A stretch of DNA of 64,000 nucleotides, from NCBI GenBank assembly GCA_937957915.1, contig CALGNZ010000036.1, positions 62,001-126,000 on the forward strand, written 5' to 3'. Position 1 is the first letter of the stretch. The number at the start of each line of letters is the position of its first letter. Source of the DNA: an uncultured Granulosicoccaceae bacterium. Its GTDB lineage: Bacteria; Pseudomonadota; Gammaproteobacteria; Granulosicoccales; Granulosicoccaceae. The notes under the pieces were generated by a model. That model saw only the letters and a list, made by a program, of their open reading frames with translations, did no database searches and was not told where the DNA came from. This document shows positions 7,675 to 18,006 of the stretch, piece by piece. Made by a program: the position numbers and the translations under genes.

Positions 7675-8547
7675 TTAAGCAGCAAGCATATGCGCTTTGA
7701 GCTTTTTCATTGCTGCTTTTTCGATCTGTCTGATTCGCTCAGCAGAAACACTGTACTCGTTGGCAAGATCTTGCAGAGTTGTTTTACCGTCGTCGTCCAG
7801 CCATCGACGCTGCAGGATATCTCGGCTTCTGTCGTCGAGATCGAGCAGGCCATCAGCCAGTATACTTGCCTGTGTATCTGCAAAGTTTTGCGACTCGGCT
7901 ACCAGCGCCGGATCGGATTCCTCCAGATGCAGATACTCTGCTGGACGCAGGGCGCGCTTCTCGGAACCATCATCAGCGGTGGTCGCATCAAACGATGTAT
8001 CACCGCTGGTAAGCCGCGATTCCATCTCGTACACCTGCTCCTGAGTAACGCCAAGATCACGTGCTACCGCTTCTGCCTCTGCGGCAGAGAACCATCCCAG
8101 ACCTTTCTTTGAGCTGCGCAGTTTAAAGAACAGCTTGCGTTGAGCCTTGGTGGTGGCGACCTTTACGATGCGCCAGTTGCGGATTACGTACTCGTGGATT
8201 TCTGCTCGAATCCAGTGCACAGCGAAAGAAATGAGTCGCACACCGACATCGGGATCGAAGCGTTTTACAGCTTTCATCAGTCCGATGTTGCCTTCCTGTA
8301 CGAGATCAGCCAGTGGCAGGCCATAGCCTGAGTAGCTGCGCGCCAGGTGCACGACGAAACGTAGTTGTGACATTACCATTTGGCCCGCAGATTCGAGATC
8401 ATCGTTATCGCGGTATTTTATGGCCAGCTTTTGCTCTTCTTCGGAGGTTAGCACCGGAAAAGCAGCTATTTTGGCTAGGTAGCCGTTTAGATCATCGCTG
8501 ACCGCAGGTAAAGCCATGGGTGATGCTTTAACCATTGCATGGGTCAT
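7675..8547 (-). CDS. rpoH: RNA polymerase heat-shock sigma factor sigma-32
   Basis: Directs RNA polymerase to heat-shock promoters. The 290-residue protein has sigma region 2 (DLVQEGNIGLMKAVKRFDP), the RpoH box QRKLFFKLRSSKK that separates it from the housekeeping sigma, and a region 4 helix-turn-helix ending RIRQIEKAAMKKLK. Start ATG at 8547 has an AAGGAG ribosome site. It is downstream of ftsY-ftsE-ftsX, as in many gammaproteobacteria, but has its own leader. That leader contains a perfect HrcA-type CIRCE operator 34 bp before the start codon, so the gene is probably repressed by HrcA at normal temperature. Confidence 0.98.
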   Translation of the reverse strand: MTHAMVKASPMALPAVSDDLNGYLAKIAAFPVLTSEEEQKLAIKYRDNDDLESAGQMVMSQLRFVVHLARSYSGYGLPLADLVQEGNIGLMKAVKRFDPDVGVRLISFAVHWIRAEIHEYVIRNWRIVKVATTKAQRKLFFKLRSSKKGLGWFSAAEAEAVARDLGVTQEQVYEMESRLTSGDTSFDATTADDGSEKRALRPAEYLHLEESDPALVAESQNFADTQASILADGLLDLDDRSRDILQRRWLDDDGKTTLQDLANEYSVSAERIRQIEKAAMKKLKAHMLAA

Positions 8548-8680: not shown

Positions 8681-9595
8681 TCAATTCTCGATCAAAAAAT
8701 GTTGACTGGACAACATACTGCCCGGTCTAATTTTTCTAAGTATATGATTTAAAACATTAAAAATGCTTTGAAGTGCGGTGGCAGCGGCGAAACAAGCGGC
8801 CGCAACGCTGACGATGGCGAGTACGATTAAATGCGCGACAGGTAACGAATCGAGCAAAACCGTACTATAGGTAGATATGTCAGCGTAGTGCTCAAGCGTT
8901 TTGTAAAACACTGTGACCATCGCGGCCGCACCAATGGTTGCCAGCATCGTGATTAGCGCTGCACGGACGATATACGGACGTGAAATGGTGGTTGGTGTGG
9001 CACCAAGTTGACGTTGCAAGTTGATATTGGCGCTGTTGGATCTGAGTATTTCCCTTTTAATGGTGATCATGCAGGTCAGCGCAGCGGCCACCAGGGCGAA
9101 CAGAAACAGCACCAACGCCAGCTTTTTTGCTTTGTTGTGACTGCCGGCATTCCTTTTTAGCAGCTGTCGGTTGACCGATACGAAGGTGAATGCGCCTGAG
9201 TTTTCCAGAGTTCGTGCCAGCAAATCAGTCTGGTTTTCCGTCAGTGCCAGTGCAGGTTTTATTTCCAGAATCGCAGGAATGTTCTCATCGGCAGGTAAAA
9301 TGGTGACACGCTCTATTTGCGGGTTGTTAATCAAAGACTGCTTCAATGTTGCGACTACCGCTTCATTGCTATCTGTGGCAAAGGCGCTGATGTGTCGTCT
9401 GTCCTCCAGGTTAGCCGCTGCATTTTGCATAGTCAGCGCCAGTGCAACCAGAGTTACCGGTATCAGCAGTCCCACACTGAGAACGCAGAGTAACCTGAAT
9501 TGATTGCCAGTTTCGCGGCGCAAAACAGTGATGAGCTCGCTCATCGTTTGCCCACTGACAGTGGGAAAGTGCCGAGATTCCTTTTTATCCTTCAT
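8681..9595 (-). CDS. ftsX: Cell division protein FtsX
   Basis: Membrane partner of FtsE, which in other bacteria signals across the membrane to activate septal peptidoglycan hydrolases. The 304-residue protein has the FtsX layout: a cytoplasmic N terminus, helix 1 (about 34-57), a ~100-residue periplasmic loop, helix 2 (about 158-180), then two further helices (about 210-235 and 252-280). The segment LQRQLGATPTTISRPYIVRAAL matches the FtsX cytoplasmic coupling region. The gene follows ftsE with a 4-bp gap and is followed by rpoH. FtsX itself shows no sign of decay, although its FtsE partner lacks ATPase motifs. Confidence 0.92.
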   Translation of the reverse strand: MKDKKESRHFPTVSGQTMSELITVLRRETGNQFRLLCVLSVGLLIPVTLVALALTMQNAAANLEDRRHISAFATDSNEAVVATLKQSLINNPQIERVTILPADENIPAILEIKPALALTENQTDLLARTLENSGAFTFVSVNRQLLKRNAGSHNKAKKLALVLFLFALVAAALTCMITIKREILRSNSANINLQRQLGATPTTISRPYIVRAALITMLATIGAAAMVTVFYKTLEHYADISTYSTVLLDSLPVAHLIVLAIVSVAAACFAAATALQSIFNVLNHILRKIRPGSMLSSQHFLIEN

Positions 9596-9599
9596 CGCT

Positions 9600-10274
9600 T
9601 CAGACTAATCCGGTGGCTGTGCTTTCGTGTTGACTCAGGGATCCCCTAAAGGCCTGCAGCAAATGTGTAAAGTTGCGGCTGGGTGGTGTTTTACCAGTTA
9701 TCATAAGTACGGTTGCTCCGCCGGCGTTGGCGGTTTCGAGCATGCCGAAGATCAAGTCCTGTTTTTCCTTGTCGGGCTCTGCCTCCGGGTAGTCCGCCAG
9801 AATGGTTTGTGGATTGTGGATGGTCGCTCTGGCACAGGCCACCAGCCGCAATTTTGCCGTATCCAATTGCCGCACCAGGCGGTTTGCATCTTCTATTAGA
9901 CGAGCTTCCTCTAGTTTGTCAGCAATACGCTCACGCATGGCTTTTCGATCAAAACCGGCGATCTGCAAGGGTAACGCCAGATTTTCTATGACGGTCCGAT
10001 TGCCAGCGAGATTGGGCTTGAATTCCAGCCAGCCTATGTTTCGACGTAAAAAGGGGACACGGGCCTCAGCAAGATTGCTGACATCAATACCGTTGATAAT
10101 GACAGTGCCGCGATCAGGTTGCTCATACCCCATTATTAGCCGCACCAGCGCGTTGCCGGTAGGCTCAGAATCTACCTGGAGGGCCGCGTAGGAACCTTTC
10201 GGAAGAATCATGGTGGCTTCGCGCAAAGCAGTTTTGCCCGCGCTCAGTTTGGTTACTTTGCTCAGGTGAATCAT
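9600..10274 (-). CDS. ftsE: Degenerate FtsE: ABC ATPase-like protein lacking all ATPase motifs
   Basis: Position between ftsY and ftsX and segments such as VPFLRRNIGW, ENLALPLQIAG and ALVRLIMGYEQPDRGTVIING identify it as FtsE, which normally energises FtsX. The catalytic motifs are gone. Walker A (usually GxSGAGKST) reads DSEPTGNA, with Gly for Lys and Asn for Ser. The Q-loop Gln is lost (WLEFKPNL). The LSGGEQQR signature reads LDTAKLRL. Walker B DEPTG reads DYPEAE, losing the catalytic Glu, and the switch His (ATHD) reads ITGK. The frame is intact and full length, so this is a conserved pseudo-ATPase rather than a broken gene. I chose ATG 10274, because family members begin at MI; an upstream in-frame ATG exists at 10304. 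Confidence 0.88.
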   Translation of the reverse strand: MIHLSKVTKLSAGKTALREATMILPKGSYAALQVDSEPTGNALVRLIMGYEQPDRGTVIINGIDVSNLAEARVPFLRRNIGWLEFKPNLAGNRTVIENLALPLQIAGFDRKAMRERIADKLEEARLIEDANRLVRQLDTAKLRLVACARATIHNPQTILADYPEAEPDKEKQDLIFGMLETANAGGATVLMITGKTPPSRNFTHLLQAFRGSLSQHESTATGLV

Positions 10275-10372
10275 GCCCGCAACGCCCTGCATTTTTATCC
10301 GCAATACTCAGGGTAACTATAGACGTTGCAATCACAACCGCAACTGCCTCGCTGGTTGCGCGCGTACGCGAA

Positions 10373-11398
10373 CTATGCGCTTTCCGCATTCGAGTCAAGC
10401 AGTGCTTCGACATAGTCTTCCGCCAGGAAGACCCGTAAATCATAGATGCCTTCACCCACGCCGATAAAACGGATGGGCAGTTTCAATTCATTGGCCAGAG
10501 TAAACACCATGCCGCCCTTGGCAGTGCCGTCGAGCTTGGTAATTGCCAGACCAGTCACATCCACAGCATCGCCGAACTCGCGTGCCTGATTGAGTCCGTT
10601 CTGACCAGTGGTACCGTCGAGCACGAGCAGTGTTTCATGAGGAGCGCTGTCATCCAACTTGCGTAGCACGCGGGATACCTTGCTCAACTCATCCATCAGG
10701 CCAGACTGAGTGTGCAGGCGGCCCGCGGTATCTGCTATGAGTACATCGATACCCCGCGCGGTTGCTGCTTGCAATGCATCAAAAATAACTGATGCCGAAT
10801 CGGCACCGCTGCCTTGTGCGATTACCGGAATATTGTTTCTGTCTCCCCAGGTCTGCAGCTGTTCGACAGCAGCGGCGCGGAAGGTGTCTCCGGCTGCCAG
10901 CATCACAGTTTTGCCACCGTTTTGAAGTTGACGAGCAATTTTACCAATGGTAGTGGTTTTACCTGCGCCATTCACACCGACCACAAGTAACACGAATGGT
11001 TTGTCTGACTCCGGAATTTCCAGTGGTAACTCAACGGGCTTTAACACGTCAATCAACTCAGATCGCAGAACGCCTGGCAGGTCAGCGTCGCTGTTGCGTC
11101 GAGCGACGGCGCTTACTTTGTCGATAATGCTCGCGGCGGTCGGCACGCTGATATCGCTCATAATCAGCTGTGATTCCAGATCTTCGAGCAGCTCATCATC
11201 GATCTGGCTTTTGCCAGTCAGGAAGCCAAGCAGGCCCGATGTAAAACGGCTGCGTGTTTTTTCCAGTTTTTTATCGAGGCGCTCGTCAGCGTCAGCGGTC
11301 GCTGGTACTGGCTGCACTGCCTCTGTCGCATCAACTGGGTCGTGATCGGCAGCGGTCTTTGCCTTGCCCTTTCGGTTTAGGAAACTGAATATGCCCAT
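10373..11398 (-). CDS. ftsY: Signal recognition particle receptor FtsY
   Basis: SRP GTPase that docks ribosome-SRP complexes at the inner membrane. In 341 residues it has a charged N-terminal A domain (shorter than in E. coli), the N domain, and a G domain with VVGVNGAGKTTT (G1), AGDTFRAAAVEQL (G2), IADTAGRLHTQ (G3) and ITKLDGTAKGG (G4), ending in the conserved GVGEGIYDLRVF. Start ATG at 11398 gives the expected MGIFSFLNRK amphipathic start. It is the first gene of ftsY-ftsE-ftsX, separated from ftsE by ~100 bp. Confidence 0.98.
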   Translation of the reverse strand: MGIFSFLNRKGKAKTAADHDPVDATEAVQPVPATADADERLDKKLEKTRSRFTSGLLGFLTGKSQIDDELLEDLESQLIMSDISVPTAASIIDKVSAVARRNSDADLPGVLRSELIDVLKPVELPLEIPESDKPFVLLVVGVNGAGKTTTIGKIARQLQNGGKTVMLAAGDTFRAAAVEQLQTWGDRNNIPVIAQGSGADSASVIFDALQAATARGIDVLIADTAGRLHTQSGLMDELSKVSRVLRKLDDSAPHETLLVLDGTTGQNGLNQAREFGDAVDVTGLAITKLDGTAKGGMVFTLANELKLPIRFIGVGEGIYDLRVFLAEDYVEALLDSNAESA

Positions 11399-11624: not shown

Positions 11625-12212
11625 TTGGCAAGCCAGAAACACAATAAGGTTCGGATCATAGCTGGCCGGTTCCGCGGTCGGAATATCACATTTGCAGATA
11701 GTCCGGGGTTGCGACCAACCGGTGACCGACTGCGTGAGATGCTGTTCTCATGGCTTCAGCCATACATAGTCGAGAGCAGGGTACTGGATTTATTTGCTGG
11801 AAGTGGTGCACTGGGCTTTGAAGCGGTCTCCCGCGGTGCAGCGCAAGTGACAATGGTCGAAAAGTCGCGCAAAGTCTGCGCGGTGTTACGGCAGAATGCA
11901 GCGCAACTTGAGGCAGACGACATCACTATTATCTGCGCAGATGCTCTGGACTTGCTAAGTGGCACTGTCAAAAGCAATCGTGACGGGGCTATCGGTCCAG
12001 CCGATATTGTTTTTGTTGATCCGCCTTTTGGTGAGCGTCTGCACCAGACGGTTATCGACGAGCTGAGCCGGAGCCAACAAGTAGTACAACATTCGTTGGT
12101 AGTTATCGAGAGTGACAGGCGCGCAGACCAATGCACAGTTCCAGCAGCCTGGCTGCTGCTGAGAGAAAAAGTGGCAGGCGAAGTGCGCCTGCAGCTTTTT
12201 CAGATTCAATAA
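11625..12212 (+). CDS. rsmD: 16S rRNA (guanine-966-N2)-methyltransferase RsmD
   Basis: SAM-dependent enzyme that methylates G966 of 16S rRNA. Visible motifs: N-terminal VRIIAGRFRGRNI, LRPTGDRLREMLFSWL, SAM-binding LDLFAGSGALGFEA, and catalytic VDPPFG at about residue 130. Length (195 residues) is normal. The start is TTG at 11625, because an in-frame stop lies 6 bp upstream and no ATG is available. It is divergent from ftsY and followed by coaD, the usual arrangement in this class. Confidence 0.95.
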   Translation: MASQKHNKVRIIAGRFRGRNITFADSPGLRPTGDRLREMLFSWLQPYIVESRVLDLFAGSGALGFEAVSRGAAQVTMVEKSRKVCAVLRQNAAQLEADDITIICADALDLLSGTVKSNRDGAIGPADIVFVDPPFGERLHQTVIDELSRSQQVVQHSLVVIESDRRADQCTVPAAWLLLREKVAGEVRLQLFQIQ

Positions 12213-17053: not shown

Positions 17054-18006
17054 GTTGCCTCTCCTACCGGGCTGGTTGTTTTTAGTTTCAACAAACCAAA
17101 CAAGGTTTCCAGATGATTTCTTACCGGTGTGACCTTTGCCAGAGCGACACCGCGCCCGCGCATCATTTCACCAAAACCAACGCCATTGTCTCCGCGGTTA
17201 AGTGTGGTTAATAACCAGTGCTTTGGATCTACCGAGCAGGCGGAGATAAAGCCAGGTAAGTTCTGAAAATCCTGGCTGCTGGCGGCCTGATTTAGTCTTA
17301 CCTCGAAGGTGCTGTGGCTGGCGTCAGTCAATTGATCCATCCGCAGGTCGAGTATTTTTCGGCCGCTATCCATCAGCACGACGCGCTGGCAATTTGCCTG
17401 CACTTCGGTCAATTGGTGACTTGAGAAGACCGTTGCCTGATGTGCCTCCAGGTTTTGCAGCACATCGCGAATTTCCATCAGTTGAACCGGATCAAGCCCG
17501 TTTGTCGGCTCGTCCAGAATCAACAAACGAGGCTCGTGTACCATTGCCTGCGCCAGGTTGATTCGCTGTTGAAAGCCGTGAGACAGATTGCCGATCACGC
17601 GCTTTTGCACCTCTGCCAACTTACAAAGGTCGATTGCGCGAGTAACGCCCCGTGCCAGTGCCGCACCTTTGAGTCCGCGCAATTTGCCAGCGAAGTTCAG
17701 GTATTCCCTAACTCTGAATTCTGGATAAACAGGTGGAGTGTCAGGTGCGTAGCCCAGTTGGCGTCGGGACTCTACAGCTTGTTTTTGCAGGTCTGCGCCA
17801 GCGATCGACACAGTGCCCTGTTGTGGTGCATGGACGCCTGCCAGCACCTTAAGCAGCGTCGATTTGCCAGCGCCATTGAGCCCCAGCAGACCGATGGAAT
17901 CGCCTGCGTCAATCGCTAAATCAAGGTTGTGCAGCGCCTGTTTATCACCGAAGTACATCGAGATAGCGTTTGCGGACAGCAACGGTTGAGATGTATCAGC
18001 GCACAT
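17050..18006 (-). CDS. GldA-like ABC transporter ATPase
   Basis: ATPase of the four-gene ABC operon. Walker A LLGLNGAGKSTLL, Q-loop, signature LSHGFQQR (the LSxGxxQR form common in ABC-2 exporters), Walker B LLILDEPTNGLDP and switch His in FSSHQ are all intact. About 100 C-terminal residues extend beyond the nucleotide-binding domain, as in GldA. Start ATG 18006 is preferred over the in-frame start at 18051, which would add an unconserved N terminus. First gene of the operon, overlapping the permease by 4 bp. Confidence 0.92.
   Translation of the reverse strand: MCADTSQPLLSANAISMYFGDKQALHNLDLAIDAGDSIGLLGLNGAGKSTLLKVLAGVHAPQQGTVSIAGADLQKQAVESRRQLGYAPDTPPVYPEFRVREYLNFAGKLRGLKGAALARGVTRAIDLCKLAEVQKRVIGNLSHGFQQRINLAQAMVHEPRLLILDEPTNGLDPVQLMEIRDVLQNLEAHQATVFSSHQLTEVQANCQRVVLMDSGRKILDLRMDQLTDASHSTFEVRLNQAASSQDFQNLPGFISACSVDPKHWLLTTLNRGDNGVGFGEMMRGRGVALAKVTPVRNHLETLFGLLKLKTTSPVGEAT

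Follow-up and report, generated by a model that had tools for sequence, protein, structure and literature searches.

Among the closest described counterparts of the locus analysed here is the FtsEX–EnvC–amidase pathway, as studied in Escherichia coli. According to one account, the X-lobe of E. coli FtsX comprises residues 145–171, and its deletion abolishes both EnvC binding and daughter-cell separation while still permitting growth at low osmolarity, which the FtsE substitutions K41A and E163Q do not (PMC7668044). EnvC in turn contacts FtsX through residues 114–128 and 141–160 and possesses a restraining arm which blocks amidase binding, as described in the same source (PMC7668044). A second study reports that, given NlpD, ATPase-dead E. 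coli FtsEX can still bring in EnvC and favour cell separation, and that it blocks division unless FtsA is altered; there, the reason why FtsEX must hydrolyse ATP is presented as an open question (PMC7343993). For S. pneumoniae FtsE, the regions shaping the groove for FtsX have been described (PMC7468199). In the open-access literature, searched at the level of titles and abstract openings, we found no description of a natural FtsE devoid of ATPase residues.

The window, a stretch of 64,000 nucleotides from an uncultured Granulosicoccaceae bacterium, contains the gene order ftsY-ftsE-ftsX-rpoH with rsmD divergent, which is the order found in E. coli K-12. The genes of the locus are the following:

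7675..8547, minus strand: rpoH, downstream member of the conserved locus
8681..9595, minus strand: ftsX, 304 aa, modelled with its transmembrane helices, Porter domain and coupling helix, the X-lobe being absent
9600..10274, minus strand: ftsE, 224 aa, an ABC nucleotide-binding domain fold with degenerate ATPase motifs (reading frame, alignment, profile score and AlphaFold2 model)
10373..11398, minus strand: ftsY, upstream member of the conserved locus
11625..12212, plus strand: rsmD, divergent neighbour as in E. coli

The ftsE frame is open from 9600 to 10304 on the minus strand, and the likely start is the ATG at 10274. The original prediction described a full-length protein with preserved structural landmarks, and this description holds: PFLRR, ENLALPLQIAG and LIMGYEQP are all present. 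FtsE (TIGR02673) is the top NCBIfam family with 113.5 bits, a score which misses the equivalog cut-off of 264.85 bits. The protein is 35% identical to E. coli FtsE over 191 aa (E 2e-32). Its AlphaFold2 model, built from 12 sequences of the genus, has a pLDDT of 86.6, and the first nine PDB matches of this model are all FtsE or FtsEX entries (TM 0.88 for 8hd0_A, 0.87 for 8ymc_A). Position between ftsY and ftsX-rpoH, best sequence match and best fold match all identify the gene as an orthologue of FtsE by descent, kept beside FtsX.

The catalytic residues listed as replaced in the original prediction are indeed replaced in the alignment, every one of them, and the Walker B aspartate is kept:

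10149..10175, minus strand: former Walker A, residues 34–42, VDSEPTGNA against GHSGAGKST in E. coli FtsE (alignment)
10020..10022, minus strand: former Q-loop Gln, residue 85, now Phe against Gln in E. coli FtsE (alignment)
9843..9866, minus strand: former ABC signature, residues 137–144, LDTAKLRL against LSGGEQQR in E. coli FtsE (alignment)
9786..9803, minus strand: former Walker B, residues 158–163, ILADYP against LLADEP in E. coli FtsE, with the Asp retained and the catalytic Glu now Tyr (alignment)
9693..9695, minus strand: former switch His, residue 194, now Gly, in ITGK against ATHD in E. coli FtsE (alignment)

The D-loop reads AEPD. The residues of a functional ABC ATPase, namely the Walker A Lys and Ser/Thr, the signature, the Q-loop Gln, the switch His and the catalytic Glu, are all absent, and the protein is predicted not to hydrolyse ATP.

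Other ABC proteins are encoded in the same DNA. A second ABC ATPase domain with a strong family score (112.8 bits) lies at 17362–17961 on the minus strand of the window, which shows that ABC motifs are not degenerate throughout this stretch. The 5.38 Mb genome from which the window derives gives at least 137 ABC ATPase family matches, with 150 of its 211 candidates scored.

The genus of the window species comprises 14 genomes within the family Granulosicoccaceae, and the family has 34 genomes outside it. A degenerate ftsE stands beside ftsY or ftsX in 13 of the 14. Twelve genomes, including that of the window, have the full gene between ftsY and ftsX on a single contig; rpoH follows on the same contig in 11 of these, whereas the G013 contig stops just past ftsX. 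The G002 gene is in two pieces at two contig ends, one beside ftsY and the other beside ftsX-rpoH. For G009 no part of the ftsE locus was found: no ftsX was detected and the ftsY match reaches only 34%. As ctpA was not detected there either, G009 is not counted as a loss. None of the 12 full proteins retains the Q-loop Gln, the signature or the switch His, and the two G002 pieces fit this pattern (13/13). The Walker A Lys is kept in 10 of 13 (9 of the 12 full proteins and the 5′ piece of G002) and lost in the window species, G011 and G013. The nine full proteins that keep it show GK[ST]T together with DEP in Walker B, and GK[ST]T is also present in the G002 5′ piece. Judged from these motifs, most members of the genus may still bind ATP, but not the window species.

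Canonical FtsE motifs were found in each of the 13 family relatives read, out of the 34 outside the genus. One canonical relative, G040, is a single contig of 7.78 Mb and belongs to genus g4, which we take to be Granulosicoccus. At the level of the class, 259 of 370 sampled genomes have an FtsE over the TIGR02673 cut-off, which some canonical FtsE may miss narrowly. Genomes of the class that lack an FtsE above this threshold are thus fairly common; the keeping of a dead FtsE looks unusual. The window does come from an assembly of 201 contigs (completeness 89.09), but the same kind of gene with the same losses recurs in twelve other genomes of the genus, which rules out a sequencing or assembly artefact; the original prediction had argued against sequencing error from the number of motifs lost.

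The neighbouring FtsX had been called intact. Its frame is, but model and alignments both show that the X-lobe is missing:

9272..9295, minus strand: X-lobe site, an 8-residue loop (residues 101–108) between two Porter strands (model secondary structure and alignments)

A profile comparison matches the protein to E. coli FtsX (probability 97.7), and its AlphaFold2 model (pLDDT 83.7, pTM 0.70) has the type VII topology of four transmembrane helices, a Porter domain made of two beta-alpha-beta units and a coupling helix. The best PDB matches come from FtsEX entries and are moderate, with TM 0.56–0.62 and rmsd 5.5–7.3 for the top four. The score against TIGR00439 is 71.4 bits and does not reach the cut-off of 255. 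This threshold is strict: in the 30 family genomes outside the genus which have an FtsX, scores range from 216 to 298, and 18 exceed 255 while the other 12, canonical as well, miss it at 216–254.9 bits. No FtsX at or above 255 bits occurs in the 14 genus genomes. The NPLP motif of the X-lobe is absent from 13 of 13 genus FtsX and present in 15 of 15 others and in E. coli. The columns of E. coli FtsX 139–177 contain 18–37 residues in the genus and 39–42 in canonical proteins. G011 (37 residues) and G001 (31) hold other sequence there and may possess a different lobe at this site. The outgroup frames of G033, G032 and G035 were wrong in an early FtsX alignment and are left out of the later counts.

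The original prediction presupposed an FtsX that still signals. This premise finds no support, as the conserved sequence of the EnvC-binding X-lobe is gone in all 13 FtsX read and EnvC is changed at the matching places. An EnvC-type LytM protein occurs in 13 of the 14 genus genomes (E 6e-34 to 5e-27; G009 gives only 3e-16), and these are the same 13 genomes that retain ftsE and ftsX. For the window genome's protein EnvC is the best family at 112.4 bits; the family cut-off of 270 bits, missed by 40 of the 40 relatives searched, is non-discriminating. Furthermore, envC adjoins ctpA at all 13 loci of the genus and at the seven family loci checked. In alignments read by eye, the family pattern is gone from the genus in the EnvC stretches that match the E. 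coli contacts to FtsX. The restraining-arm columns hold 16 residues in all 11 genus rows counted (of 13, with G007 and G012 left out), 23 in 7 of 7 family rows and 23–57 in other gammaproteobacterial rows. In these EnvC alignments the G032 row is shortened by start trimming, and several rows of the contact alignment are trimmed at an internal Met. The FtsX–EnvC contact sites appear altered on both partners.

Downstream in the pathway, an AmiC-like amidase (AMIN plus Amidase_3) is present as one copy in 12 of 14 genus genomes, including that of the window; a search of 25 genomes, two of them non-genus members of the family, did not find it in G003 and G004. The window genome also encodes a protein with LysM and LytM domains that resembles NlpD or ActS (127.3 and 125.1 bits, under both cut-offs), and the surrounding gene order, by eye, is surE-pcm-nlpD-rpoS. 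The finding is larger than first noted and amounts to a genus-wide remodelling of the FtsEX–EnvC switch.

Selection was estimated as dN/dS by NG86; most of the 66 ftsE pairs are too saturated, and 20 of the 66 are listed. For ftsE, the pair G007–G008 gives 0.13 at dS 0.43, the five other listed pairs with dS below 1.4 give 0.14, 0.15, 0.15, 0.23 and 0.24, and the remaining listed pairs with finite dS give 0.11–0.26. In G007–G008 the value is 0.19 for ftsX and 0.02 each for ftsY and rpoH, and the latter two genes lie at 0.01–0.09 in the other listed pairs. All 12 full ftsE copies and all 13 ftsX copies have open frames; one stop flagged in the G010 ftsX lies right where the match finishes, with the frame closing at L051:4438, and is read as the gene's own stop. 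When neutral evolution was simulated with no indels, the ftsE frame remained open in 46 of 2000 runs at 0.215 substitutions per site (half the G007–G008 dS) and in 3 of 2000 at 0.43; for the window gene, 2 of 2000 survive at 0.6. Since dN/dS is 0.13–0.24 in the pairs with dS below 1.4 and frames rarely survive neutrally, the genes are constrained, albeit more loosely than their neighbours ftsY and rpoH. The homologue alignment and dN/dS estimates suggested with the original prediction thus bear out a degenerate gene that is conserved in 13 of 14 genomes, with values well under 1 wherever a pair could be used. For the window species itself no close partner exists, so constraint on its own copy is read solely from the open frame.

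The distribution of conservation along FtsE has changed as well. At FtsY identities of 62–80%, mean FtsE identity is 41% in the genus (54 pairs) against 60% in the canonical family proteins (30 pairs). From canonical to genus sequences, mean column identity falls from 0.66 to 0.44 over the whole gene and from 0.98 to 0.42 at the ATP site, just under the genus gene mean. In the FtsX-contact regions, which are the S. pneumoniae groove regions described in PMC7468199 and mapped by hand, it falls from 0.66 to 0.56. At nine positions the genus is close to invariant for a residue seldom seen in 15 canonical sequences, and 23 canonical positions have been lost.

Outside the genus, two relatives from different genera of the family have no ftsEX between ftsY and rpoH. 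G050 and G059, with no FtsX match and ftsY matches of only 35%, are not used for this count. In a tree of FtsY and RpoH (29 taxa, 609 columns), the genus forms one clade of 13 members with support 99. G017 is its sister (support 100), G015 groups with g4 (support 69), and the nodes which decide between one and two losses of Walker A have supports of 80 and 49. About 360 bases separate the frames of ftsY and rpoH in G017 (L253 6629–6990), and about 410 in G015 (L254 6357–6767). FtsE (26 rows) and FtsX (25 rows) proteins match nothing in the 11.9 kb stretch of G017 better than E 0.08. In the ftsY-rpoH gap of G015 no FtsE or FtsX match is better than E 6.6, and the sole significant match in its 11.8 kb stretch is an unrelated ABC gene at 2.0–2.6 kb. 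Genome-wide, an FtsX-grade match is absent from both (best 38.7 bits in G017, 26.5 in G015). As G015 is placed with g4 and not beside G017, the two losses look independent, tentatively so at this support. In addition, the ctpA locus of G015 (L291/L292, a 7.5 kb stretch) shows no EnvC match better than E 0.85, although ctpA and the gene that flanks envC on its other side, which matches at least 12 genus or family loci, are both present; G015 appears to have lost envC between conserved neighbours, alongside ftsEX. G017 likewise has no EnvC-grade match (best E 3.5e-15), but a ctpA search at E 1e-60 found nothing there, so the local absence of envC is established only for G015. Given these two relatives, ftsEX is dispensable in the family.

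A second FtsE was sought in each genus genome, with 109 candidates scored out of 120–278. None exceeds the cut-off in any of the 14 genomes; the best other FtsE-like matches have E 7e-69 to 1e-58, against 1e-77 to 1e-81 for three canonical family FtsE. A plasmid search yielded 3183 records, each below 60% identity, and 35.6% was the highest value among five of the 3183. One motif-complete copy did appear on contig C16 of G007 (L297, 6000–16000), with GPSGSGKTT, LSGGERQR, DEPTGN and THD:

L297 5064–5876 and 4162–4914, minus strand: motif-complete FtsE and FtsX-like frame of G007 C16, in a different gene setting

C16 has 55.5% GC, against 47.8–50.3% in four further stretches of G007 (including one overlapping pair), and because of this higher GC and the different gene setting it is probably a foreign, contaminating contig.

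How can these observations be explained? We believe, with slightly more confidence than doubt, that FtsEX in this genus is an ATP-free scaffold in a pathway without an ATP-driven switch. The genes would be expressed and their products would form a complex in which FtsE, with its fold and much of the groove holding the FtsX coupling helix preserved, probably acts at the division site as a scaffold for FtsX or stabilises it. The ATP-powered step that moves the FtsX periplasmic domain and frees EnvC would have been taken apart in three places: in the catalysis by FtsE, in the X-lobe of FtsX, and in EnvC, where both the stretch contacting FtsX and the autoinhibitory arm are affected. Amidases would then be activated by an EnvC that is less restrained or held in a new way, together with an NlpD-type activator. 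The original prediction had offered a scaffolding FtsE as one option, and it is the best reading. A more specific form, which we regard as possible and somewhat doubtful, is a working ATP-free FtsEX–EnvC switch throughout the genus: a pseudo-ATPase FtsE would hold an FtsX lacking its X-lobe, EnvC would be partly freed or newly bound, and septal wall cutting would follow another signal. A scaffold of this kind is plausible by analogy, because ATPase-dead E. coli FtsEX still promotes separation alongside NlpD. The same analogy also speaks against it: the E. coli mutant needs an altered FtsA, so the FtsA side should have changed in the genus too.

The main rival is slow decay, in which FtsEX became dispensable in an ancestor and is now being lost, the genus being an intermediate stage under residual constraint. 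We consider it unlikely, though a serious contender. The original prediction had named absence of the gene in relatives as a sign of decay; such absence occurs in two other genera, the sister G017 (support 100) and G015, where envC is gone too, and decay therefore stays a live rival. Moreover, ftsE and ftsX evolve faster than ftsY and rpoH, and ftsE faster than canonical family FtsE, as relaxed selection would give, and the further Walker A loss is confined to the window species, G011 and G013. That the nine full proteins with Walker A all keep DEP, and that the window species lacks a close pair, weighs slightly towards decay and against the scaffold. However, the genus itself keeps open frames in 12 of 12 full ftsE (the thirteenth being in two pieces) and 13 of 13 ftsX, where neutral frames rarely survive. 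The dN/dS of 0.13–0.24 in usable pairs, the newly fixed FtsE positions and the joint retention of ftsE, ftsX and envC in the same 13 genomes also argue against it.

The Walker A keepers with their DEP would also fit a switch that binds ATP without hydrolysing it, operating in most members and lost altogether in the window species. This is improbable, as every member read has lost the Q-loop Gln and also the signature, the motif by which one subunit of the dimer completes the site of the other, and three have lost the Walker A Lys. It is more improbable still that a canonical FtsE elsewhere, or another ABC ATPase, performs catalysis in a heterodimer whose inert half is the degenerate FtsE. Among other ABC proteins, heterodimers in which one of the sites is degenerate do occur, the genome encodes very many ABC domains, the assemblies are 77–98% complete, and G007 has the motif-complete FtsE beside an FtsX-like frame. 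Against this, neither another FtsE (109 candidates scored per genome) nor any FtsX over its cut-off was found in the 14 genomes, so the search for a second ftsE proposed earlier came out negative, with the exception of the G007 copy, whose gene setting and GC point to contamination.

Under the preferred scaffold reading, a switch thought to need ATP may have become ATP-independent. The genus and its gene-less relatives separate the ATP-dependent part of the system from whatever keeps the FtsEX–EnvC proteins under selection.

Compared with the FtsE of described FtsEX systems (TIGR02673; structures from E. coli, P. aeruginosa and V. cholerae), the window protein is alike in locus order, length, fold, best family and FtsX-contact regions, but lacks the Walker A Lys and Ser, the Q-loop Gln, the signature, the catalytic Glu and the switch His. 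Its FtsX resembles Gram-negative FtsX (TIGR00439) in the transmembrane helices, Porter domain and coupling helix of the model and in its FtsEX structural matches, and differs in the missing X-lobe and the score of 71.4 bits. The pathway beyond is that of FtsEX, EnvC and amidase, with EnvC beside ctpA, a LytM domain, an AmiC-like amidase and an NlpD-type protein, except that genus EnvC is altered in the FtsX-contact and restraining-arm stretches. Lastly, the laboratory ATPase-dead E. coli FtsE variants D162N, K41A and E163Q are alike in providing an FtsEX without hydrolysis, as is predicted here. They are, however, single mutations which impair or block E. coli division, whereas here the loss arose in nature, extends across the genus and goes together with altered FtsX and EnvC.
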